Position numbers and translations under genes: made by a program
Shown here: one piece after another, positions 23,918 to 59,033 of the stretch
How the letters are laid out: every line of letters starts with the position of its first letter
Position numbering within the stretch: the first letter of the stretch is position 1
Notes under the pieces: generated by a model
What the model was told of the DNA's origin: nothing
The model's input: the letters and a program-made list of their open reading frames with translations, nothing else
Database searches by the model: none
Assembly: GCA_002791545.1 (NCBI GenBank)
Contig: PFXG01000008.1
Coordinates: 62,001 to 126,000, forward strand
From: Zetaproteobacteria bacterium CG_4_9_14_3_um_filter_49_83
GTDB lineage: Bacteria; Pseudomonadota; Zetaproteobacteria; Mariprofundales; Mariprofundaceae
Direction of reading: 5' to 3'
DNA: 64,000 nt

Positions 23918-24649
23918 CTACATACTAAAGCGTTCACCAAAATATAACCTCCGCGCATCAGGATGGGCTACAATTTCATCCGGTGTACCCTGAACCAGCG
24001 TCTCGCCCGCATTCATCAAATACGCACGATCACAAATCGACAAAGTATCCCGAACATTATGATCGGTAATCAAGACGCCAATGTTTTTTTGCCGTAATTC
24101 GGCAATAATGCTTTGAATATCTTCCACCGCAATGGGGTCTACTCCGGCAAATGGCTCATCCAGCAACAAAAATCTGGGTTTGGTCACAAGGGCTCTGGCA
24201 ATTTCAGTTCGGCGGCGCTGACCTCCGGATAGCGTGTAGGCTTTCTGATGTTGAACACCTTCTATACCCAATTCGACCAGCAAAGCCTCGAGCTCTTCTT
24301 CAACCCTCACCTGCGGCAAATCAAGCGTTTCAAAAATTGCCAGAAGGTTTTCACGCACCGTCAGCTTGCGAAAGATACTTGCCTCCTGAGGCAAATATCC
24401 AATACCCAGCCTTGCGCGCAAATGCATAGGTTTTTTTGTGACATCCGCAGTATCAATACTGACTTGACCCACATCCGATGCAACCAGGCCGCAAACCATA
24501 TAAAAGGTGGTTGTTTTACCTGCCCCGTTGGGCCCGAGCAATCCCACGCATTCACCTGAAAACACATCAAGGCTCACATTATGCACGACAGTTTTATTAC
24601 GGTAGCGTTTACTAAGCCCAACCGCAGACAAATGATGAACAGTACTCAC
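23918..24649 (-). CDS. lptB: LPS export ABC transporter ATPase LptB
   Basis: 243 residues. Walker A GPNGAGKTT, Q loop, signature LSGGQRRRTEIARAL, Walker B FLLLDEPFAGVDP and H-loop ITDHNV are all present, and the sequence fits the LptB subgroup (YLPQEASIFRKL). It powers LPS transport by LptFG to the LptC-LptA bridge. Start GTG overlaps the lptA stop by 4 bp. Confidence 0.97.
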   Translation of the reverse strand: MSTVHHLSAVGLSKRYRNKTVVHNVSLDVFSGECVGLLGPNGAGKTTTFYMVCGLVASDVGQVSIDTADVTKKPMHLRARLGIGYLPQEASIFRKLTVRENLLAIFETLDLPQVRVEEELEALLVELGIEGVQHQKAYTLSGGQRRRTEIARALVTKPRFLLLDEPFAGVDPIAVEDIQSIIAELRQKNIGVLITDHNVRDTLSICDRAYLMNAGETLVQGTPDEIVAHPDARRLYFGERFSM

Positions 24650-43482: not shown

Positions 43483-43549
43483 GCGATTTATTATCTATGC
43501 TCGGTAGCGCACAGACAGGCAGCAAGTAGCCTCTACCATGGAGGTTAAC

Positions 43550-46300
43550 ATGAATGACGACCGGGAAATTTTACCGCAAGATGTGTTAACACATATTCAT
43601 CAGCTACCGCTGGATGAGGTACTGACACGACTGTCGACCTCAGCTGCAGGGCTGGATAATACTGAGGTGCGGGTGCGGCGGAAGGCGTATGGCATCAATC
43701 AGTTGACGCAGAAGCATGAAAAACCGCTTATTGTGCAGTTTCTGCTGCAATTCCATAATCTCTTCTCCTATCTGCTGCTCACTGGCGCGGCGCTCTCCTT
43801 TACCAGTGAGCTGCTGGTGCGTGATGCGGGTTCGCTGTTTGTCGCCTGGGCACTGCTTGGCGTTACTGTGCTCAATGCCGCCTTTACCTTTTTTCAGGAG
43901 TATCGCGCCAAGAAGGCGATGAAATCCTTTGCCAACCTGATGACCTCACAGGTGGTGGTGTTGCGCAATGGCGAAAAGTTGCAGGTGGATTCGAAACGGC
44001 TGGTGCCGGGCGACATCATGCTGCTTAGCGAAGGGGACAAGGTGACCGCCGATGCGCGGCTGATTGAGCAGAATATGCTCAAGGTGGATCACTCGGCGCT
44101 GACCGGCGAGAGCGAGCCGCAGCTACGCAGTCTGGAGGCGACCAGCGGCAATGTGCTGCGCAGTCGCAATATGGTCTTCAGCGGCACCCATGTGCAGTCG
44201 GGGTTGGGCACAGCGGTGGTGGTGGCCACCGGCGATGTCACCCAGATCGGCCATATCGCCCGCGAAACAAGCGCGGTGAGCTCGCAAACGTCCCACCTGC
44301 AGGGGCAGATCAGCCACTTCATCCGCATCATCTCCTACATCGCCATCGCCCTCGGTGTCAGCTTCTTTCTCCTCGGTGTCGTGGTCACGCAGAGCCCTCT
44401 GTGGATCAATCTGGTGTTTGCCATCGGCATCATCGTTGCCAATGTGCCGGAGGGGCTGCTGCCAACGGTAACACTCACCCTCTCCATCGCCGCCCAGCGT
44501 ATGGCCAAACTTAATGTGCTGGTAAAAAATATCGATGCCATTGAGACCCTCGGTAGCATCACCGTTATCTGCTCGGACAAGACCGGAACACTCACTGAAA
44601 ACCATCTCAACGTGCACTGCATCTGCCTCGGCGGTCACTGCTATGCGTTTGATCGCGAAGCCAAACGACTCAATATGGATGGTCGCCATGTCCACCTGCG
44701 CACCATCCCCGGCATGCAGGATTTCAACGACATCCTGCTGCTGTGCAACAACAGCACCCTCACCGCCGAACGCAGCTTCGGCGATGCCACCGAGCTCTGC
44801 CTGAAGCGCTTCGTCGGTGCCTTCGCCAATATCGGCTACATCGAATCCAACCAGCCACGCCTGCATGAGCTCCCCTTCTCCTCGGAGAGTCGCTACATGG
44901 TGACCGTGAACCGATTTCACTCGCCCAACGCCCGCGCCTACATGAAGGGGGCGACGGTGGTGGTGTTGGAGCATTGCAGCCACTACTTTGAACAGGGGGA
45001 GCAGCTTGAGCTGACTGATACGGTGCGCCAGCGCATCATCGCGCAGAACAGCGGCTACGCGGCGCAGGGTTTCCGTGTGCTCGGCTGCGCGTTGAAATCT
45101 GTCGAGCCGGAGCACGCGGCCATTGAGGATGGCTTCTGTTTCTATGGTCTGGTGGTGATGCAGGATCCACCACGCCCCGAGGTGGCGGCATCGGTACATA
45201 CCTGCCGTCAGGCAGGCATCCGGGTGATGGTGATCTCCGGCGATCACGGCTCCACCGTGCTGAGCATCGCCCGCCAGACCGGCATTGTGCAGGGTGATAA
45301 CCCGACGGTGATTAGCGGCGACGATCTGCATCAGTATGACGATGCGACGTTAAAGGAGGCGCTGACCGCACCGGAGGTGCTTTTTGCGCGTGCGTTACCA
45401 CGCGACAAGCTGCGCATTGTTACTATGCTCAAGGAGATGGGCGAAGTGGTGGCGGTTACCGGCGACGGGGTGAATGATGCGCCGGCGTTGCGCCGCGCCG
45501 ATGTCGGTATCGCCATGGGAAAATCGGGCACCGAGGTGGCCAAGGAGGCGGCCGATATTGTGCTGCTGGATGATAACTTCGCCTCCATCGTCAACGCCAT
45601 CCGCGCCGGGCGCACCGCCTACGACAACATCAAGGGGTTCATCACCTACATCCTGACCAGCAACACGCCGGAGATTGTGCCGTTCCTGCTCTTTATTCTG
45701 CTCGGCTGGCCACTGGCCCTGCCGGTGCTGCTCATTCTGGCCATCGACCTCGGCACCGACATGCTGCCAGCCATCGGCCTCGGCACCGAAAGCCCGGAGG
45801 ATGACATCATGTGCCGCAAGCCGCGCTCGCCCGCAGCAAAACTGCTCAACTGGCGCATGATCGCCCGCTCCTACGGCTTCATCGGTCCACTACAAACCGC
45901 CTTCGCTTATATCATCTTCTTCGATATTCTGTTCGATGGCGGCTGGAACTGGGGCGTGGCGCTGGCAATCAGCTCCCCGCTCTACATGCAGGCGATCACC
46001 GGCTTCTTCGCCACGGTGATTATCACCCAGATCTTCAACGTCTTCGCCTGCCGCACCAGCAAACTATCGATGTTCAGCAAGGGGCTGTTCAGCAACCCTT
46101 TGATCCTGATCGGCATCGCCAGCGAACTGGCCCTGCTGGCAGCCATCGCCCTCACCCCACTTGGCAACGTCATCTTCGGCACCGCCCCCTTCGATGCAGG
46201 CTACCTGCCGCTGATGCTGCTGTTCGGTGCCATCATCCTCGCCTGTGAAGAGGCCCGCAAATATCTCTACCGCAGCCGTGGAATCTTCGGCCTGGAGTAG
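43550..46300 (+). CDS. P2-type cation-transporting ATPase of the Na,K-ATPase-like (P2C) group
   Basis: 916 residues from the ATG at 43550, with GGAGG (43540-43544) five bases before it. Motifs in order: TGES (about 185), PEGLLPTVTLT in helix M4, phosphorylated Asp343 in CSDKTGT, and GDGVNDAPAL. The M5-M6 region (SNTPEIVPFLLF, LAIDLGTDMLPAIGLGTE) is close to Na,K- and H,K-ATPase alpha subunits rather than Ca or Mg pumps. The ion is unknown; no beta subunit is seen. The gene is much richer in GC than its neighbours (many GCC/CTG/CGC codons), suggesting recent transfer. Confidence 0.92.
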   Translation: MNDDREILPQDVLTHIHQLPLDEVLTRLSTSAAGLDNTEVRVRRKAYGINQLTQKHEKPLIVQFLLQFHNLFSYLLLTGAALSFTSELLVRDAGSLFVAWALLGVTVLNAAFTFFQEYRAKKAMKSFANLMTSQVVVLRNGEKLQVDSKRLVPGDIMLLSEGDKVTADARLIEQNMLKVDHSALTGESEPQLRSLEATSGNVLRSRNMVFSGTHVQSGLGTAVVVATGDVTQIGHIARETSAVSSQTSHLQGQISHFIRIISYIAIALGVSFFLLGVVVTQSPLWINLVFAIGIIVANVPEGLLPTVTLTLSIAAQRMAKLNVLVKNIDAIETLGSITVICSDKTGTLTENHLNVHCICLGGHCYAFDREAKRLNMDGRHVHLRTIPGMQDFNDILLLCNNSTLTAERSFGDATELCLKRFVGAFANIGYIESNQPRLHELPFSSESRYMVTVNRFHSPNARAYMKGATVVVLEHCSHYFEQGEQLELTDTVRQRIIAQNSGYAAQGFRVLGCALKSVEPEHAAIEDGFCFYGLVVMQDPPRPEVAASVHTCRQAGIRVMVISGDHGSTVLSIARQTGIVQGDNPTVISGDDLHQYDDATLKEALTAPEVLFARALPRDKLRIVTMLKEMGEVVAVTGDGVNDAPALRRADVGIAMGKSGTEVAKEAADIVLLDDNFASIVNAIRAGRTAYDNIKGFITYILTSNTPEIVPFLLFILLGWPLALPVLLILAIDLGTDMLPAIGLGTESPEDDIMCRKPRSPAAKLLNWRMIARSYGFIGPLQTAFAYIIFFDILFDGGWNWGVALAISSPLYMQAITGFFATVIITQIFNVFACRTSKLSMFSKGLFSNPLILIGIASELALLAAIALTPLGNVIFGTAPFDAGYLPLMLLFGAIILACEEARKYLYRSRGIFGLE

Positions 46301-47558: not shown

Positions 47559-47774
47559 CTCTTCAGCAACCCCTTGATCCTGATCGGCATCGCCAGCGAA
47601 CTGGCCCTGCTGGCAGCCATCGCCCTCACCCCGCTCGGCCATGCCATCTTCGGCACCGCCCCCTTCGATGCGGGCTACCTGCCGCTGATGCTGCTGTTCG
47701 GTGCCATCATCCTCGCCTGTGAAGAGGGCCGCAAATACCTCTACCGCAGTCGCGGCATCTTCAGCCTGGAGTGA
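47559..47774 (+). pseudogene. 3' fragment of a second P2C-type ATPase gene
   Basis: 216 bp aligning to 46085-46300 of the intact pump with a constant offset of 1474 and no gaps; I count 16 differences (about 93% identity). Nine codons differ silently and four change the residue; the stops differ (TAG and TGA). It starts in mid-gene, so it cannot make a pump. It forms a direct repeat with the 3' end of the intact gene and encloses the cytochrome and Crp/Fnr genes. Confidence 0.9.
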
Positions 47775-47836: not shown

Positions 47837-50137
47837 TCAGCAAATAATCTTCTCAACCGCAGCCAATAGCCTGTCCGGGGTATAGGGTTTCTCGATAAAG
47901 CCTTCGTATTTTTGCAATTCGAGCGGATGATCAAGCGATGCTTTGGAATAACCGGAAGCGATAAGTACCGGCAAGCGGGGAAACATCTTCCTGATATGGT
48001 GCAACGCTTCCTCTCCGCCCATCACAGGCATAGCCAGGTCCATGATAACCAGATCAATGCGCTGCAAATCGTGAGCAAGAAAATCTAGCGCCTCTTTTCC
48101 ATTACTGGCAGTAAACACCGTGTAGCCGCAAATTTTCAACATCTCAGCGCCAATCTCGCGAAGCTGTTGCTCATCATCCACCAGCAGCACATGGGTTACG
48201 GCAGCGCATGCGTCAGCTGCCTTATCCGTCAGCTCCCGCTGCACCAAACCACGTGTATCCATGTGCCGTTCTTGCGCATTAGTCGGTGCAGGCAGATAGA
48301 TGTGGAACGTCGTGCCTTTTCCCTGCTCACTATCCAGCCATAAAAAACCATCATGCTCTTTGATAATTCCGTAGACTGTAGCCAGTCCCAACCCAGTCCC
48401 TTTACCTACCTCTTTCGTGGTGAAAAACGGGTCAAAGATATTATCAATGATCGAAAGCGGAATGCCGCAACCATTATCAACAATGTCGATGTTGATGTAT
48501 TTCCCTTCTATAGCATCGGGATGCTTTTGCAGAAACGCACTGTCAATCAGGCGATTTTGTGCGCAGATAGTAATTTCAGCGTTTGCTGATTGCATCACAG
48601 CATCACGCGCATTAACCAGCAGATTAATCAGAACCTGATGTATCTGAGAATGATTCCCCAACACCTGCCATAAATCCTGATCTGTTCGCGTGTGAATAGT
48701 AATGCTGCGATCAAAGGTTTCCCTCAGCAGCCCTTCCACTTCTTTCACCAGAGCGATGATATTGATTGTCTCAATATGACCCTTTCCCTTGCGCGCAAAA
48801 CCCAACAGGTTCCGGGTCAGGTCTGCAGCCCGCTCACCCGCATTGATAATCGTATCAAACCGGCCAATTGAAAATGAATCGGATTCGGCCTGGCTCTTAC
48901 CCAGATGCGCTGATGAAAGAATGGCGGTCAGCAAGTTATTAAAATCGTGCGCGATACCGCCAGCAAGTGTGCCGATGGCCTCCATTTTCTGGGAATGCAG
49001 CAATTGATCCTCAAGACGGCGAATATCGGTAATGTCCTGAATGATACCCTCGAAACCGATAGGCTCGCCATGATCATCAAAGCGAACCCTTGACGTGAGC
49101 AGGGCCGTAATCGGTGTGCCATCGAGCTTGACGTAGTCAATCTCGCGCTCCTTAACCTCAACCTTTTGCAGCAGCTCATCGATCATCTGACAACGTTGTT
49201 CCGCCTCCCTGTACAAGATGCTTCCCTGCTCAATCATGGCCTCACGACTGCTATAACCGAACAGTTCGACCATGGCATCGTTACAATCGATGAGCTTACC
49301 ATCGAGGTTGTTGATATAAAGGGGTTGCGCAATATTCTCGAACAATTCCCTGAACTTACGCTCTGATCGCTCCAGTTCGATAGTTTTGTTGCTGATTTCC
49401 ACATTCTGCCGCCGCAACGATGCGGCCATAGCGTTAAAGTTTGTTGCCAGTTGCTCGATCTCATCGTGCGATTGCACCTCTATAGAAAAATCCAGATCGC
49501 CGGCACCAATCCTGATAGCACCCTGAGAAAGGGCCCGAATCGGCCTTGTCATGCGTCGTATCGGGAAATACAACAATAGGCAGGCGATTATAATCATCAG
49601 CGGGGTTACCCACAGCGTGGTAGTGAGGGAGCGTTGCCACTGCCTGGTAATATCGCTGGTGGAAAGACCCATGCGCAAATATCCCGCAATTTCGTGATTA
49701 TCCAACAATACAGGAGCCAGAAATTCCTGATAGGCCTCGCCGTCTTTAGCGTAGGAAACTTCACCGCCCGGCATAAAACCCTGCCGGGCAGCCGATAAAT
49801 CGCTATCGGAAAGTTGCTTGCGCTTACGATCACCGGACTGAAACAAGACGCTGCCGTTCTCCAGATAAACGTCGATAAAAAGAACATGCGGAAGGTTCTG
49901 TATACCCGAACAAACCTGCTCGACAAAATGCGCGTCTTCCAGAACCACGCCAAGACGCGCGCCATTACTGAGTCCTTCGGCCAGTGAACGAGCCTGTTCA
50001 GTCAGTGCATCATGCAACGCCCGGTTCTGGCTGATCAGAAAATAAGTTGCGGCACTTGCCATAATGGCAGCCACTAGCAGTGCAACCAGCAGAAAGATTC
50101 TGCTGCCGAAAGCGTTTAATGAAAGCACTGAAGGCAT
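47837..50137 (-). CDS. Hybrid sensor histidine kinase with HAMP, PAS and C-terminal receiver
   Basis: 766 residues from ATG 50137, six bases after AGGTG (GTG at 50146 is adjacent to the previous stop). Order: membrane helix (about 10-32), periplasmic sensor to about 170, second helix, HAMP, PAS ([20 protein letters not shown]), HisKA with the phospho-His in [15 protein letters not shown], HATPase (NGCGIP, GTGLGLA) and a receiver with Asp in [12 protein letters not shown]. No output-domain regulator is beside it. Likely senses the ligand bound by the upstream binding protein (inference from the operon). Confidence 0.93.
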
Positions 50138-50146
50138 CCCAGGCAC

Positions 50147-51073
50147 CTAATAAACATGCTTTGCCGCTTGCAGCAGCTCTCCGGGTACCTGAATACCCAA
50201 GGCCTTCGCCACCTTCATGTTGATGGAAAAATCGACATCACGTGCCATTTCAATTGGGATACTGCCGGGCTTTACCCCATTCATTATGCGATTGGACAGC
50301 TCACCGGCCTGACGTCCCAGCGAGCGGTTCTGGACCGTAAAGGCAAACAGTGCTCCGGCCCGCACATATTTATCAGAGAGGCCAATCAGCGCCTTATTGT
50401 TCTCTTGTGAAGCAAAAAAAAGATAACGAACCAGATCTTTGGAACGCATAAAATGATCGGGCACCATCCAGTAGGCCTGATTACGATCCATGACCATTTC
50501 AAGATAATGCTCTGCCTCTTTTTCTGATAACGCCGACTGCGCATCCATCTCAATATTGTGCTTCGTTAATGCTGCTTCACCCAGTTTAATCAGACTACCG
50601 CTTTCTTCCGGGGCGTAGACCACCCCTACATGCCTGACGCTCGGCATCAGGGAGTCCAATGTTTTCATCTGCCGTTCCGGTGACACATTCATCGCCACGC
50701 CGGTCAGATTCTCATAATGTTGCTTGAGCTTGTCATGGGGGCTGAGCACCATACTGAACAGAATCGGGATATCAGTAATTTTTCCTGCCAATGCTGCAAG
50801 CGCTTCGCCACCAATGACCAGAATCTGATCCGGTCGCCGTGCACGAATACCAGGAATAAGCGCCTGCTCGTCAGAGATGTCACCATCTTCCCGGCGCTCG
50901 AAAACCTTAATACTGGCATCGGATGCTTCCTTGAAACCGGCCAGCGCCTCAACATAAGGGCGAATGTTAGGGTCGAGTAAAACCACAACTTCCTTAGCTT
51001 CAATTTCACCTGTGCCGCCAAGATATAAGGCAACCAGCAACATGCCACAGACAGTCCTGCACCACATACTCAT
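50147..51073 (-). CDS. ABC-type substrate-binding protein (PF04392-like) without its transporter
   Basis: 308 residues, signal peptide (VCGMLLVALYLGGTGEIEA), then a two-lobe periplasmic-binding fold: DPNIRPYVEALAGF, LVIGGEALAALAG, LMPSVRHVGVVYAP, KALIGLSDKYVRAGALFAF. It fits the ABC_sub_bind family (PF04392). No permease or ATPase gene lies anywhere near. Its ATG overlaps the TonB-receptor stop (ATGA) and it abuts the kinase gene, so all three are one operon. The ligand is unknown. Confidence 0.88.
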   Translation of the reverse strand: MSMWCRTVCGMLLVALYLGGTGEIEAKEVVVLLDPNIRPYVEALAGFKEASDASIKVFERREDGDISDEQALIPGIRARRPDQILVIGGEALAALAGKITDIPILFSMVLSPHDKLKQHYENLTGVAMNVSPERQMKTLDSLMPSVRHVGVVYAPEESGSLIKLGEAALTKHNIEMDAQSALSEKEAEHYLEMVMDRNQAYWMVPDHFMRSKDLVRYLFFASQENNKALIGLSDKYVRAGALFAFTVQNRSLGRQAGELSNRIMNGVKPGSIPIEMARDVDFSINMKVAKALGIQVPGELLQAAKHVY

Positions 51074-53070
51074 TTAAGCGAATAGCTCGCTTCAGCCATT
51101 ATAGTTCGACCAGGACGCGGATAACCGGCAGGAATACCAGCCGCAACAACGGTCGGATCGCTCACGTTGGCATCGAACAGGTTATGCGCTTTCAAGGAAA
51201 GTTCGAGGTTACGGACAAGCTTTGTAGAACTAACAGTAAAATCGACCAGCGTTGTCGAAGCCGCCGGAGCGCGGGTATCACCAACAGCTCTTGGCCGCTG
51301 CCCATCCCAACGCAATCCGGTATTGATGTTAATTAAATCATCAAAGCAACCGGCGTTGATACCGGCTTTGAAACGTTGGCGAGGAACATCCGGCAGCACC
51401 GATTGAGTCAGTTTGTCACGTGAGTGATACCAGGCGTAATTAAGATAACCGTAGAGATGTTCGCGCCAGTCGCTTTTGAGTTCTGTCTCAACACCCCAGA
51501 TGGTTGCGCCGCTCTTATTTATGCTTAACGGAGACCCCTGGACGATTTGATCCCGAAATAAGTTGTGGAACAGATTGCTGCTGAGCTGGTAGTTGGGATT
51601 AATTTTCCAGGTGATACCAGCCTCAATGGTCTGCATTTTCTCCGGCTTGAGATTAGGGTTACCAACCGCTGAAGGGTTATTGATTTCATACATCTCCAGG
51701 AAACTTGGCGCACGGAATGCACTGCCGAAAAGCAACTTGATGTCCACCATATCGCTGGCAGTCCACACCACCGCAAATCTGGGGTTGAGCGTATTACCAA
51801 GGTCATTGTAATGGTCATAACGAATTCCGGCAGTAACAGACAGCGCGTTGAAGGCGGTCCACTCATCCTGCAAATAAGTGGCAAACACCTTACGTTTGGC
51901 CGACTGGTTGTGATTGAAGGCGGATGTGACATCAACACCGTTAACAGTGTGTACAACATCATATTGACGTTGAAAATCCTGCACAACTCCGACCGTCATA
52001 TCATGGTGTTCAAACGGAGAAAAACGCGCCTTCACCTCACCCGACCAGGTTTGGTTTTTCAGTAGCGGATGGCCGGTGGTGAAGCCGGGAAAGCCGATGT
52101 ACCAGTTAGCATCCCACCAGAACTGATCTAGCGCGATGTTCGTCTCAACATCCACGCCGCCTATGCGATCCTTATAGGTCAGGCTGCCGTAAGCCTGTTT
52201 GTTATGGGTGCGCGTAGTACCGGGATCAATGAAATTTGTAATCGCCAGGGGTGTGCCACGTTGTTTGTCCAGGTAAAGTCCCGAAAAGCTGAACTTGCCA
52301 TATTCGCCATTGAGATAGGCAGTATCGGTGGTGCGCCAGAAGTTGGTGTAGCCTCTGGCACCGGCTGCATCAGCAGGCACAAATCGACGGCTGCCATTGG
52401 TATCAAGGCGATCATAGGAAAGCACCATGCCAGCCCCGTTGTCGCCCAATGCACCCAGCAGATTGGCATGGCTGCGCTGATTGTTACCGCCACCACCTTT
52501 GAGGGTTACGCCTTCAACATCACCGATTTTTTTCATGATAATATTGATAACACCAACAAATGCGTTGGCCCCATAAAGAGCTGAACCAGGCCCACGAATT
52601 ACTTCGATACGCTTGATTTGCTCGATCGGAAATTCATCATAAAGATGATTAAAGCTACCGAAAAACGGACTGTTGACGCGGTGACCATCAATCATCAACA
52701 GCACCTTCTCCATGCGGGATTTAATACCACGCACCTCGATGTCCGATTCGGTGGAAATATTATTGAGGTAGCTGTAACCGAAGCCGGGAATGGTCACCAG
52801 AGCATCGAAAATGTTGCGAGCACCCATCTCTCTAAGCTGTTTATCACTAATAACGGTGGCGATAGCCGGGGCCTTGCCAAGCGTCTGTGTCGACTGCGAG
52901 GCAGAAATAAACAACTCCTCTTCGGAGAACAGCAATGCCAGATCATTGCCAGCCTGACCGCCCGATGTCGCCAGAAGCAGTTCATCCTGCGCCAAAACGT
53001 CATTGGGCAGCAAAGCGCAACAGCTGAAAAGAGTCATAAAAACAGCAATATTACCGCAGCCTTTTCTCAC
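51070..53070 (-). CDS. TonB-dependent outer-membrane receptor
   Basis: 666 residues, start GTG. Signal peptide ending around NDVLA-QDE. A plug domain is clear (APAIATVISDKQLREMGARNIFDALVTIPGFG-like; short motifs ATVISDKQL, VEVIRGPGSALYGANAFVGVINI read as RGPGSALYG), followed by a 22-strand barrel ending in an aromatic-poor final strand (AEASYSLK). It imports a ligand too large for porins, driven by TonB. The ligand cannot be read from sequence. First gene of the operon; promoter at 53210. Confidence 0.95.
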   Translation of the reverse strand: MRKGCGNIAVFMTLFSCCALLPNDVLAQDELLLATSGGQAGNDLALLFSEEELFISASQSTQTLGKAPAIATVISDKQLREMGARNIFDALVTIPGFGYSYLNNISTESDIEVRGIKSRMEKVLLMIDGHRVNSPFFGSFNHLYDEFPIEQIKRIEVIRGPGSALYGANAFVGVINIIMKKIGDVEGVTLKGGGGNNQRSHANLLGALGDNGAGMVLSYDRLDTNGSRRFVPADAAGARGYTNFWRTTDTAYLNGEYGKFSFSGLYLDKQRGTPLAITNFIDPGTTRTHNKQAYGSLTYKDRIGGVDVETNIALDQFWWDANWYIGFPGFTTGHPLLKNQTWSGEVKARFSPFEHHDMTVGVVQDFQRQYDVVHTVNGVDVTSAFNHNQSAKRKVFATYLQDEWTAFNALSVTAGIRYDHYNDLGNTLNPRFAVVWTASDMVDIKLLFGSAFRAPSFLEMYEINNPSAVGNPNLKPEKMQTIEAGITWKINPNYQLSSNLFHNLFRDQIVQGSPLSINKSGATIWGVETELKSDWREHLYGYLNYAWYHSRDKLTQSVLPDVPRQRFKAGINAGCFDDLININTGLRWDGQRPRAVGDTRAPAASTTLVDFTVSSTKLVRNLELSLKAHNLFDANVSDPTVVAAGIPAGYPRPGRTIMAEASYSLK

Positions 53071-53178
53071 CAGCTCCCCCTCGAGTTCTTATTCATCAGA
53101 CGGATGCAACGCTTTTGCACACCCGCCAACCGCCTTGCCGTTGCTCGGACATCATACAATCAACGCGGACTTTGTCCA

Positions 53179-53207
53179 TGAAACAGCTATGCTTTTGCAT
53201 TGTTTCA
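53179..53207. promoter_or_regulatory. Inverted repeat at the transcription start of the TonB operon
   Basis: TGAAACA (53179-53185), then ATGC-TTTT-GCAT (53189-53200) and TGTTTCA (53201-53207): two nested arms with a 3-base bulge. It directly follows the -10 box of the predicted minus-strand promoter. It could be a repressor operator or a hairpin at the mRNA 5' end. Confidence 0.45.
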
Positions 53208-54697: not shown

Positions 54698-55162
54698 TTA
54701 AAAACGCGGGCCCTGTTCACGTTTGGAGGATTTACGATCACGACGCTCCTGAGCCAGCTGATGGGCTTTTTCTCGTTGTTCAGGCGTCAGAATCGCATCG
54801 GTCTGCGCTCTGGTTTTTGCATGCTGCCTGATTGATGCCGCCACCAGTTTGCCTTGCTCATCGGCAAGTTTTGCTACGGCCTGATCATAACCATTATCCG
54901 CAGGATTCAGCTGGCGAATAGCTTCATGATTTTCTTTCATAGCATCACGATTTTTTTTCATTTCCGGTTTAGCTTCACTGTGAATTTTTTTGAACTGCTC
55001 TTTTTGCTCCTGACTCAAATTCAGTTCCGTGGCCATGCGTTCGAAACCTTTAGCACCACACTCAGCGGCTTTGCCCTGATCACCGGCAATAGCAATGCCG
55101 GAAATCGTCAGACCCAGTGCCGCCATAAGTGGTAGATAAAATATTTTTGCTGTTACGTTCAT
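54698..55162 (-). CDS. Spy/CpxP family periplasmic protein (LTXXQ)
   Basis: 154 residues from ATG 55162, seven bases after AAGGAG; the longer frame upstream has no signal. Signal peptide (IFYLPLMAALGLTISGIAIA-G). Two LTXXQ-type motifs, LNLSQEQKEQF and ILTPEQREKAH, in an all-helical protein. Family: Spy is a chaperone for unfolded periplasmic proteins; CpxP binds the kinase CpxA and keeps it silent. It is divergent from a CpxR-type regulator, the same arrangement as cpxP-cpxRA in E. coli. Confidence 0.9.
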   Translation of the reverse strand: MNVTAKIFYLPLMAALGLTISGIAIAGDQGKAAECGAKGFERMATELNLSQEQKEQFKKIHSEAKPEMKKNRDAMKENHEAIRQLNPADNGYDQAVAKLADEQGKLVAASIRQHAKTRAQTDAILTPEQREKAHQLAQERRDRKSSKREQGPRF

Positions 55163-55245
55163 ATTGAACTCCTTTTTTCCTGAATACCTGCGTGCCCAAT
55201 TGGCCGTCGCGGTATGGCCAATGCTGATGTGAGGATTGTTAATGT

Positions 55246-55264
55246 GCTGACAATCAATGTCAGC
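55246..55264. promoter_or_regulatory. Perfect inverted repeat in the Spy/CpxR-like intergenic region
   Basis: GCTGACA (55246-55252), ATCAA, TGTCAGC (55258-55264): seven-base perfect arms. It lies between the divergent starts at 55162 and 55346. Could be an operator for a dimeric repressor. Confidence 0.35.
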
Positions 55265-55277
55265 AAAACGCAAAAAA

Positions 55278-55295
55278 GTGTTAAGATTGTGTAAA
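55278..55295. promoter_or_regulatory. OmpR/CpxR-like direct repeat
   Basis: GTGTTAA (55278-55284) and GTGTAAA (55289-55295) repeat with an 11-bp period, a spacing used by OmpR-family regulators. It resembles the repeat at 1183-1197 in the first Spy locus, and likely binds the regulator encoded next to it. Confidence 0.45.
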
Positions 55296-55345
55296 ACTCA
55301 CCACTTTTGGCTTTCAGCGCACTTATTTCATGGCATGATCACGAC

Positions 55346-56062
55346 ATGAATATTCTGATGATTGATGATGACATGGAGTTGTGCGAACTGTTACAACGCT
55401 TTCTTGCCGGTGAAGGTTTCTCTGTGCAATGTATCCATCATGGTGCGCAGGGACTGGCGCTGGCTTTGGCTCAATCCTTCGACATGATTTTACTGGATGT
55501 CATGATGCCCGGCAAAAACGGCATGGACGTGTTGCGTGAATTGCGCGAGCACAGTCAGGTGCCGGTGATGATGCTAACCGCTCGCGGCGAGGAGATGGAT
55601 CGTATCATCGGCCTTGAACTCGGCGCTGACGATTACCTGCCCAAACCATTTAACCCGCGCGAACTGGCTGCAAGAATGCGGGCTATTCTCAGACGTCAGC
55701 CGCAAGCGGTCGAAGAAGCTGAACCGACAGGCGATATTCGTGTGGGAAGCTTACGATGGCTGCTGAAATCAAGGCGAGTGATGACAGTTCACGGCGAAGG
55801 GCAAACATTCGAGCTGACACTCACAACAACGGAATATGCCCTGCTGACCTGCCTGATACAGCAAGCTGATGCTGTCGTAAGCAAGCAACAGGCAGGCAAT
55901 GCGGCGTTAGGCCGCAATCCCGGTCCGTTTGATCGATCTCTGGATGTACATATCGCCAGCTTGCGCAAAAAACTCCGTGATGCGTCGTGTGCATCCGGTG
56001 TTGAAGCACCGTCGATTCAAACCATCCGTGGTGTGGGCTGGATGCTGGTCAGTGGCCGCTAA
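55346..56062 (+). CDS. CpxR-like response regulator
   Basis: 238 residues from ATG 55346. Receiver with acidic DDDMEL, phosphoacceptor Asp in MILLDVMMPG, and Lys of YLPKPFNP; winged-helix output domain with the recognition helix around RSLDVHIASLRKKLRD. OmpR/PhoB family. Pairs with the kinase gene 11 bp downstream. The receiver resembles that of the truncated regulator at the left end of the window. Confidence 0.93.
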   Translation: MNILMIDDDMELCELLQRFLAGEGFSVQCIHHGAQGLALALAQSFDMILLDVMMPGKNGMDVLRELREHSQVPVMMLTARGEEMDRIIGLELGADDYLPKPFNPRELAARMRAILRRQPQAVEEAEPTGDIRVGSLRWLLKSRRVMTVHGEGQTFELTLTTTEYALLTCLIQQADAVVSKQQAGNAALGRNPGPFDRSLDVHIASLRKKLRDASCASGVEAPSIQTIRGVGWMLVSGR

Positions 56063-56073
56063 GGTGCGCTAAA

Positions 56074-57438
56074 ATGCGATTATTCTGGAAAGTATTTCTA
56101 ACCCTGCTGGCAGTGCTGCTGCTCACCGCTCTGGCCTCACTGTGGCTGGCTCAACACTGGCAGCTGGAACAACGCGTGCTGGATGAAAAAGTCGAAGTGC
56201 TGCGCCATCAGGGCGAAACAGCTGTTGATATATTCACCTCTCAACAGCCAAAGGAGTTTCATCGCTGGTTGAAACAGAGCAGCCGCAGACATCAGGTCAT
56301 GGGGGCTTTATTCAGCGCCGATGGCATGCCGGTAGTGTCACGGCCATGGCCACATGAATGGAAACCTTTACTGGAACGCCTACAACGGGGGGAAACGTCG
56401 ATTCGTCTGCTGCAAGCGCCGATGCTCATCTGGGCCGGACGCTTGACGGCCGAAGATGGCAGCAGCTGGCTCTGGATCGCCAGCACACCTCTGCCGCCAT
56501 CGCTGATCAAGCAATCCCGTCAACAACGGTTGCTGCTGTTTGTGCTGACGGCATTGCTGGCCATGGTGATTGCCAGCCTGCTGGTCGGGCGCATCATGAC
56601 GCGTCCGATCGCCCAATTACGCCATATCACCAATCAACTGGGGCATGGGCATCTGGATGCCCGCGTCCCGGCCAGTCTCGCCGGACGAGGCGACGAGCTG
56701 GGCGAACTGGCGAGAGACTTTGATTCGATGGCAGAAAAAATTGCAGCCTTGTTGAGCGCGCATAAACAATTACTCAGAGATATTTCGCATGAACTGCGCT
56801 CGCCCTTGGCGCGCATTCAAATCGCACTGGAACTGGCCAGAGGTCAGGGCGATGCCGGCAATGAGGATGAACTTCAACGCATCAATAAAGAAGCCGACAG
56901 AATCAATGAGTTGATTGAAGAAGTGTTAACCCTGTCCCGATTTGACCAGGGGATGATGCCTCTGGAGAAGCAAACATTGTCGCTTGAAGCGTTGCTGCAA
57001 AGCGTCTGTGAAGACCTGCAATTTGAAGCAACCCGGCAGGAGTGCCACATCGAATATTTTTCGACCGCCAGCCTGAGCATCGCGGGCGATGAACGCTGGA
57101 TCTTGCGGGCAATTGAGAATATTGCACGCAATGCCTTGCGCCACTCGCCACAGGGTTCAAGCATTACTGTCAGCTTATCGCAACAGCAGGAACTCAGCAT
57201 AGCTTATGCCTGCATCCGAATTGCCGATGAAGGGCCGGGCATTGATCAGGACAAACTGGTGCATGTGTTTGAGCCCTTTTACCGGGCCGCTGAGGGGCGC
57301 GAGCGCAGCAGTGGCGGATATGGTTTGGGACTGGCCATTGCCAGGCAGGTGGTGCTTGCCCACGGCGGTTCAATTGCGGCCCGCAATCGCACAAATCAGG
57401 GACTGGAGCTTACCCTGCTATTACCCCTACCTGCGTGA
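56074..57438 (+). CDS. CpxA-like sensor histidine kinase
   Basis: 454 residues: helix (VFLTLLAVLLLTALASLWLA), periplasmic sensor to about 150, second helix (LLLFVLTALLAMVIASLLVG), HAMP, HisKA with phospho-His in LRDISHELRSPLARIQ, and HATPase_c (ENIARNALRHSP, DEGPGID, GYGLGLAIARQ). Partner of the preceding regulator. The Spy-like protein encoded divergently is its likely periplasmic modulator (by analogy with CpxP). Confidence 0.93.
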   Translation: MRLFWKVFLTLLAVLLLTALASLWLAQHWQLEQRVLDEKVEVLRHQGETAVDIFTSQQPKEFHRWLKQSSRRHQVMGALFSADGMPVVSRPWPHEWKPLLERLQRGETSIRLLQAPMLIWAGRLTAEDGSSWLWIASTPLPPSLIKQSRQQRLLLFVLTALLAMVIASLLVGRIMTRPIAQLRHITNQLGHGHLDARVPASLAGRGDELGELARDFDSMAEKIAALLSAHKQLLRDISHELRSPLARIQIALELARGQGDAGNEDELQRINKEADRINELIEEVLTLSRFDQGMMPLEKQTLSLEALLQSVCEDLQFEATRQECHIEYFSTASLSIAGDERWILRAIENIARNALRHSPQGSSITVSLSQQQELSIAYACIRIADEGPGIDQDKLVHVFEPFYRAAEGRERSSGGYGLGLAIARQVVLAHGGSIAARNRTNQGLELTLLLPLPA

Positions 57439-57539: not shown

Positions 57540-59033
57540 ATGGTAACCCGACTATCAACACATCATTTGGGGGCCAAGATCAAAAGAATCCATACTATTC
57601 CCCGTTTTCCTATACGCTGGCGCTGGTTTTTACTCGTTGGTGTGGTGGTGCTTGCTGCCGTGCTGTTATTATCGCTGATCACGCTTGATTTGGAGCGCAA
57701 TGCCTGGCTGAAAAGCCAGGACAAACATGCTTTAGCACAGGTCGCACGTTTGGGTGAAGCGCTGAAGCTGCCGATGCTCAGCGGTTCTCAGGCCGAGGTG
57801 GATGTGCTGGTCACCGGCATGCTGAAGTCATCACCGGATATCATCGGCGTGCTGGTGAATGATGCCAAAAACAAACAGAAGTTATTCGGCTCGCTGGATG
57901 CGCCAACAGTGGCTGAAGAGTTTGAGTTTAACCCGGCGACCCACGATGGTCAGACCACTCGTCTTGATCTGGAAGCGCTGTGGTATGTGCAACAGGTTCG
58001 CTACGCAGAAACATCGCTGGGATTTATTGCCGTTCGTTATTCAGAAGCCGCATGGTCCGATCTGGCGCGGCAATTGTGGGTGCGTATGCTGCTGACGGCA
58101 CTGGGCGTAATACTGGTGTCAGGGGCACTGGTGTACTGGATTGCCGGTCGAATGAGTCATCCGCTGGAACGACTGGCCGAGGCCGCCGAGCAGGTGGCAG
58201 CGGGCAACCTGAATGTGAAGTTGCTGGAAAAAGGTAACGATGAAATCACCGATGCCATGCATCAGTTCAACATCATGGTACGCGAACTCAAGCATAAAGA
58301 GGAGTTACGGGAATCCGTCGGCAAATACCTGAATCCCAAGCTGGTTGATGAAATGTTCAAGGGCGGCGTGGTAATGCGCAACAACCATAAACAGCAAGTC
58401 ACCGTTCTGTTTGCCGATATGGTCAGTTTCACTTCATTTTCTGAAAAAAACTCCCCGGAAGCCGTGGTGGACATTCTGAATCAGTACTTCGAAGTGTTTA
58501 ACAGCATCATTCATTATTTCGGCGGGCATGTGGATAAATACATCGGCGATGCAGTGATGGCGGTATTCAACCATCCGAATGAAAGCCCGAAACACACCCA
58601 TTACGCCACACTTGCCGGCCTAGCCATGACCATGGCATGTGCCCGTCTGGGCCTGTTGCGTGATAACGGAGAAGCCATTGCCTTCCGTGTCGGACTCAAT
58701 CGCGGCGAAGTCATCGTGGGCCATATCGGTTCGCATGAGCGTCTGGAATATACTGTCATTGGCGATGCGGTAAATGTAGCTTCGCGCATGGGTGGCTTGG
58801 GTCAGGGTGGTGAAGTGGTCATGCCATTCAAAACCTTTGAAACCTGTGAAACGGGGCTGGAATTTGAAGACATGGGTAATATCAATGTGAAGGGTGTAAA
58901 GTTCCCGATTCGTGTCGGTAAAGCAGTGGCTGAATCGGATGACGTCCAGCAGGAACTGGAAACAGCGATTGCACTGGCATTCGATATCACCTTGCCTTCG
59001 GTGATACGTCAGCAGTTAAAAGAGGTTGAATAA
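57540..59033 (+). CDS. Membrane class III adenylate cyclase with HAMP domain
   Basis: 497 residues. Membrane helix (about 29-48), periplasmic sensor, second helix (about 180-200), HAMP, then a cyclase domain. Metal-binding Asp293 in FADMVSFT and Asp337 in KYIGDAVMA, the adenine-contacting Lys333 and Asp409, and catalytic Asn412 and Arg416 in GDAVNVASR, indicate ATP rather than GTP as substrate. It makes cAMP at the membrane. Stop overlaps the next gene (TAATG). It may serve the cNMP-binding proteins elsewhere in the window. Confidence 0.9.
   Translation: MVTRLSTHHLGAKIKRIHTIPRFPIRWRWFLLVGVVVLAAVLLLSLITLDLERNAWLKSQDKHALAQVARLGEALKLPMLSGSQAEVDVLVTGMLKSSPDIIGVLVNDAKNKQKLFGSLDAPTVAEEFEFNPATHDGQTTRLDLEALWYVQQVRYAETSLGFIAVRYSEAAWSDLARQLWVRMLLTALGVILVSGALVYWIAGRMSHPLERLAEAAEQVAAGNLNVKLLEKGNDEITDAMHQFNIMVRELKHKEELRESVGKYLNPKLVDEMFKGGVVMRNNHKQQVTVLFADMVSFTSFSEKNSPEAVVDILNQYFEVFNSIIHYFGGHVDKYIGDAVMAVFNHPNESPKHTHYATLAGLAMTMACARLGLLRDNGEAIAFRVGLNRGEVIVGHIGSHERLEYTVIGDAVNVASRMGGLGQGGEVVMPFKTFETCETGLEFEDMGNINVKGVKFPIRVGKAVAESDDVQQELETAIALAFDITLPSVIRQQLKEVE

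Follow-up and report, generated by a model that had tools for sequence, protein, structure and literature searches.

Membrane receptors activated by a periplasmic solute-binding protein (SBP) are already known, as in NspS-MbaA, LuxP-LuxQ, TorT-TorS and XylFII-LytS, and so are adaptors of the YfiR type. YfiR represses the membrane receptor YfiN and is itself sequestered by the outer-membrane protein YfiB (PMC4887326; PMC3375315), and the outputs of YfiN-type receptors swap between GGDEF domains and kinases (PMC3375315). The action of an SBP upon a membrane receptor has been described as a widespread concept (PMC9602780). The locus considered here lies in a stretch of 64,000 nucleotides (the window) of contig PFXG01000008.1, from Zetaproteobacteria bacterium CG_4_9_14_3_um_filter_49_83 of the Mariprofundaceae, whose genome of 2.68 Mb is 99.4% complete. 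It is an operon of a TonB-dependent outer-membrane receptor, an SBP of the family PF04392 and a membrane hybrid histidine kinase (HK; Table 1), in which the SBP is probably a periplasmic signalling adaptor, reporting a molecule to the kinase and not importing it for an ATP-binding cassette (ABC) pump.

The genes follow one another as receptor, SBP and kinase, all on the minus strand; the receptor stop and the SBP start overlap by four bases (ATGA), and the GTG start of the kinase directly abuts the SBP stop, with a gap of 0. An earlier note on this DNA had described a three-gene operon with overlapping and abutting genes, and the genes lie where it placed them, on the minus strand and with Pfam support for all three, the SBP score standing against a curated cut-off of 25.9 bits for PF04392 (ABC_sub_bind). 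The order goes beyond chance, as it recurs in most of the SBP-bearing Mariprofundaceae genomes and in other families. The same note had asked whether the kinase would be conserved together with the SBP, and in the Mariprofundaceae it is: a hybrid kinase adjoins the SBP at 21 of 22 loci, the lone exception ending at a contig end, and when the periplasmic domain of the kinase was used as the query against the 74 genomes of the family, 14 of its 16 matches adjoined an SBP and two lay at contig ends, where the SBP would be cut off, with no match found away from an SBP. The SBP gene has been kept next to a receptor that has a domain in the periplasm, as in SBP-activated receptor systems. An SBP-kinase pair is also present in one Acidobacteriota genome (L104). 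A fused SBP-kinase polypeptide, looked for as proof of contact, does not occur among the loci examined. The outer-membrane step is the only one of uptake that the operon encodes, and some relatives have a porin-like protein instead of the TonB receptor: at L051 and L052 a gene of 484-489 aa takes its place, that of L051 being Porin_O_P-like, and the L051 kinase has a weak CHASE4-like sensor.

Behind the SBP-linked sensors the outputs are diverse, including hybrid kinases (HK-REC), GGDEF, HK-Hpt-GGDEF-EAL (Hpt, histidine phosphotransfer domain) and SpoIIE phosphatase, and this combination of a related input with a variable output fits a sensory adaptor and not a transport protein. At one locus (L114:3426-6004) the TonB receptor and the SBP are followed by a HAMP-SpoIIE phosphatase, a further output type behind the same input. 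Genes for DUF4154/YfiR (PF13689) were found in 37 of 150 relatives, with no match in the window's own genome; a kinase stands beside YfiR at 20 of the 20 loci covered and a TonB receptor as well at 18 of them, and operons of TonB receptor, YfiR and hybrid kinase (L177-L196) occur widely, both within the Mariprofundaceae and elsewhere in the Pseudomonadota. All 19 scanned kinases linked to YfiR carry CHASE8, as against weak matches in three of 29 receptors linked to an SBP, most of which match sCache_4 or sCache_3_2 instead, so that the type of periplasmic protein goes with the type of sensor domain, a correlation to be expected if both touch. In the receptor tree, the TonB receptors of the SBP modules stand apart from those of the YfiR modules, and the likeness between the modules is therefore architectural and not the result of a recent swap; a shared ancestry by simple exchange of the periplasmic protein is thus unsupported.

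This parallel also allows a version of the adaptor reading without a ligand, in which the SBP would hold the kinase off or on and would be titrated by the periplasmic face of the TonB receptor, sensing transport or the state of the membrane. It would follow the precedent of YfiR and YfiB, and the three-layer layout with YfiR is indeed present in the Mariprofundaceae. We regard it as unlikely, however, given that direct contact between SBP and receptor is undocumented here and that both lobes of the binding fold are still complete in the SBP, suggesting that a ligand matters. The AlphaFold2 (AF2) model of the SBP has this periplasmic-binding fold with a predicted local distance difference test (pLDDT) score of 92.4, and its nearest solved structures are 3lft (TrpX with L-Trp), 3lkv and CD0873.

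The periplasmic domain of the kinase sits between two hydrophobic segments. The solved folds nearest to its AF2 model are WalK, CitA and KinD; it has a profile match to the histidine-kinase sensor domain 5o7j and weak Pfam matches to sCache_3_2, sCache_4 and CHASE8, the last at 14.9 bits with a cut-off of 27. A closeness to CitA, which itself binds citrate, would suit the proposal that the single-Cache domain binds its ligand directly, the SBP only buffering or carrying that molecule in the periplasm, and citryl-CoA-lyase-like genes do appear in the operon of close relatives. Nevertheless, the sensor and the SBP are never found apart in the Mariprofundaceae, and the sensor subtype tracks the identity of the periplasmic protein, which leaves direct binding distinctly improbable. 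The relatives in question are four of Mariprofundus type (L033-L036), where two citryl-CoA-lyase-like genes and a thiamine diphosphate (ThDP) enzyme stand between receptor and SBP, possibly as makers or users of the sensed molecule. The two lyase-like paralogues are divergent, the first being found nowhere else in the 74 family genomes, and the best solved relative of the ThDP enzyme is BbmA (456 bits, versus 261 for an acetolactate synthase). No ligand is claimed from these enzymes, because the first paralogue has Glu where 6hxp has the His of the HGG motif and because the window lacks these genes.

The window SBP is the sole PF04392 protein of its genome and a genome-wide orphan without an ABC transporter. 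PF02653, the usual permease family of PF04392 SBPs, gave no match in the whole genome, either adjoining the SBP or elsewhere, and none in the 74 Mariprofundaceae genomes, while the same search was positive in 12 of 14 control genomes; these absences depend on the Pfam models, and some of the genomes are incomplete. The earlier note had stated that no permease or ATPase gene lies in the window, which stands for an importer permease and its cognate ATPase but not for ABC ATPases at large, LptB being present, and it had named adjoining permease and ATPase genes in close relatives as what would count against its interpretation, of which there are none. The score of the SBP with the TrpX equivalog NCBIfam NF041285 is 89.3 bits, below the cut-off of 390.

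On a broader scale, the PF04392 profile matched 108 of 399 Pseudomonadota genomes, and the neighbourhoods covered comprise 101 loci with 103 SBP rows, a few of them duplicated. Permease and ATPase accompany 37 of these rows, kinase and TonB receptor 26, and a kinase 19 (45 kinase-linked in all); the others have GGDEF (2), only a TonB receptor (3) or none of these (16). In none of the 103 does a permease occur together with a same-strand kinase within 4 kb of one SBP. The pump-linked rows form one group in the SBP tree, with a Shimodaira-Hasegawa-like approximate likelihood ratio test (SH-aLRT) value of 96, and the pump or signal label amounts to two changes, although several signalling rows are long branches whose fine placements are unsure. 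The residues that are invariant in the pump clade (T89, P90, D111, E157, N159 and N207) have been lost in the Mariprofundaceae SBPs, which have invariants of their own (G88, A91, W202, M203, G231, K235 and R238). The signalling SBPs have evolved separately from the pump-linked ones. A third clade (L055, L064, L065, L129, L140, L142, L147), comes mostly from a single genus whose genomes are large and hold many copies; no pump and no kinase is found close to its members, and the L065 copy directly follows a gene for a dCache-HAMP-adenylate cyclase.

The association of PF04392 with ABC transporters is thus common, and TonB receptors serve uptake; both could be taken to mean that the SBP delivers to a transporter of the inner membrane, either unlinked or non-canonical, and that the kinase does no more than regulate an operon for uptake. 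This seems very unlikely, with a permease family missing from the Mariprofundaceae, a window SBP outside the pump clade and without its invariant residues, and no kinase-linked SBP that has an adjoining permease. As for surface signalling of the Fec type, through an N-terminal domain of the TonB receptor and an extracytoplasmic function (ECF) sigma factor, a receptor and a regulator do share one operon, but the receptor has no STN domain, the operon has neither FecR nor FecI and the partner is a kinase, so that the domain content contradicts it and it can practically be dismissed.

Ligand presentation by the SBP to the kinase, as the earlier note had proposed, is consequently the best-supported reading of the putative contact, because in close relatives neither a permease nor an ATPase lies next to the SBP and the kinase is conserved with it. 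What these patterns leave to inference is the physical contact between SBP and kinase, the ligand, the polarity of the signal and the output regulator. The sequence of events would probably be: (i) the TonB receptor would bring a scarce molecule into the periplasm; (ii) the SBP would bind the imported molecule in its two-lobe fold; (iii) the SBP would act on the single-Cache domain, changing the state of the kinase across the membrane, in the manner of YfiR on YfiN or NspS on MbaA; (iv) His400 would then autophosphorylate; (v) and finally, the fused receiver, through Asp703, would probably tune or drain the signal as a brake. The earlier note had supposed that the signal may pass on by phosphotransfer, and here the genome offers no support: its only detected Hpt is inside a CheA-like protein of 839 aa, ChpT-type HPTransfases (PF10090) are absent from it, and a His-Asp-His-Asp relay would have no free Hpt partner. 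As the receiver has no known Hpt partner in the genome, the favored output is a response regulator encoded elsewhere, which the kinase would phosphorylate directly. The response regulator listed in Table 1 has a kinase of its own.

Several points weigh against a signalling adaptor. Some of the receptors linked to an SBP have no match to a Cache model, as Pfam assigns sCache_4 to 12 of 29 and sCache_3_2 to 4 of 29. When SBP distances are compared with the distances of the kinase domains, the sensor gives the highest correlation (r 0.967, versus 0.905-0.938 for the others), but all of them are high, because the modules have a single tree in common and only 15 were compared (n = 15), and the preference for the sensor is weak evidence. 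Moreover, an adjacent SBP and kinase need not interact: in Pseudomonas aeruginosa no binding was found in vitro for the pair with AgtS, and in the same pair tests the AruS domain was insoluble (PMC11113362).

Table 1. Features of the operon and its surroundings, in window coordinates
Feature	Position	Strand	Details
TonB-dependent outer-membrane receptor	51070-53070	-	Signal peptide, plug and barrel; Pfam Plug 74.2 bits, TonB_dep_Rec_b-barrel 144.5 bits
PF04392 solute-binding protein (SBP)	50147-51073	-	Apparent signal peptide; Pfam ABC_sub_bind 110.5 bits
Membrane hybrid histidine kinase, 769 aa	47837-50146	-	Pfam HAMP-PAS-HisKA-HATPase-REC
Kinase periplasmic single-Cache domain, ~residues 34-175	49622-50047	-	AF2 fold, pLDDT 81
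HAMP domain, residues 196-245	49412-49561	-	Pfam 57.5 bits
PAS domain, residues 264-376	49019-49357	-	Pfam PAS_9 49.9 bits
Phospho-acceptor His400, HDFN motif in HisKA	48947-48949	-	Invariant in 19 homologues (alignment A2)
C-terminal receiver domain, residues 653-765	47852-48190	-	Pfam 74.4 bits
Receiver phospho-acceptor Asp703	48038-48040	-	Invariant in 19 homologues (alignment A2)
Candidate sigma-70 promoter TGGACA-N16-TATGAT	53151-53178	-	10/12 consensus; ~80 nt before receptor start; not evidence of function
Inverted repeat TGAAACA-N15-TGTTTCA	53179-53207	-	Abuts promoter -35 upstream; nested ATGC/GCAT; possible operator
ABC ATPase LptB	23918-24649		355 bits, cut-off 240; beside LptA; lipopolysaccharide export
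P-type ATPase	43538-46300
P-type ATPase end (last ~72 codons), first copy	46086-46300	+
P-type ATPase end, second copy	47560-47774	+	Downstream of kinase
Cpx-like stress system	54698-57438		OmpR-type regulator with its kinase and, divergent from them, an LTXXQ (CpxP/Spy-like) gene
Response regulator	55307-56062
Kinase of that regulator	56074-57438
Class III adenylate/guanylate cyclase, HAMP-linked	57540-59033	+	Downstream of Cpx-like pair

The good promoter that had been attributed to the receptor comes down to one sigma-70-like match, which stands as such and is only suggestive when compared with shuffled sequence, the region upstream of the receptor containing two such sites versus 0.7 +/- 0.9. 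The adjacent inverted repeat was not found in relatives, which does not favor a conserved operator, and control by Fur was rejected, as the Fur-box-like sites upstream of the receptor are no better than those of shuffled sequence in the window and 14 relatives. On the other side of the operon, the end of a P-type ATPase gene is present twice, and between the two copies lie genes of cytochrome c'-like and FNR/CRP-like type, in what looks like an insertion or a partial duplication.

If the adaptor reading is accepted, a separate lineage within a large and mostly unstudied family of binding proteins would be a signalling family, and the label of ABC transporter that annotation pipelines apply would be wrong for many PF04392 proteins. 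The TonB receptor would tie the signal to active import across the outer membrane, in such a way that receptor and kinase could reveal each other's ligand. Members of the Mariprofundaceae are known iron oxidisers, and for iron-oxidising Zetaproteobacteria the operon would offer a candidate pathway by which an imported molecule could control genes. More tentatively, and with greater doubt than hope of being right in every part, the PF04392 SBPs and YfiR may be parallel adaptors of one three-layer architecture, formed by an outer-membrane TonB receptor or porin, a periplasmic adaptor and a membrane receptor with any output, where the outer-membrane receptor itself would gate signalling by handing over the ligand or titrating the adaptor, and where a lineage of ABC subunits would have turned into a dedicated signalling family.

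With regard to the systems described above, the window SBP shares its Pfam family and fold with the PF04392 proteins of ABC uptake such as TrpX (3lft) and CD0873, but it has no permease or ATPase, belongs to another clade and has other invariant residues. FecA-FecR-FecI likewise ties a TonB receptor to signalling, although with STN, FecR and FecI, all of them lacking here, where the output is a kinase. NspS-MbaA, LuxP-LuxQ, TorT-TorS and XylFII-LytS employ SBP families other than PF04392, and to our knowledge a TonB receptor is a conserved operon member in none of them. In the literature searched, no paper was found that joins PF04392 with a TonB receptor and a kinase, and what would be new is a pump-less PF04392 lineage associated with TonB receptors and single-Cache receptors, recurrent across the Pseudomonadota. 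A close likeness in form is with YfiR-YfiN (YfiBNR/TpbB), where a membrane receptor whose periplasmic part is a Cache/PAS domain is under the control of a soluble periplasmic protein that has an outer-membrane partner; the putative adaptor here, however, is a PF04392 SBP and not DUF4154, the sensor looks more like sCache than like CHASE8, and the place of YfiB in the outer membrane is occupied by a TonB receptor.

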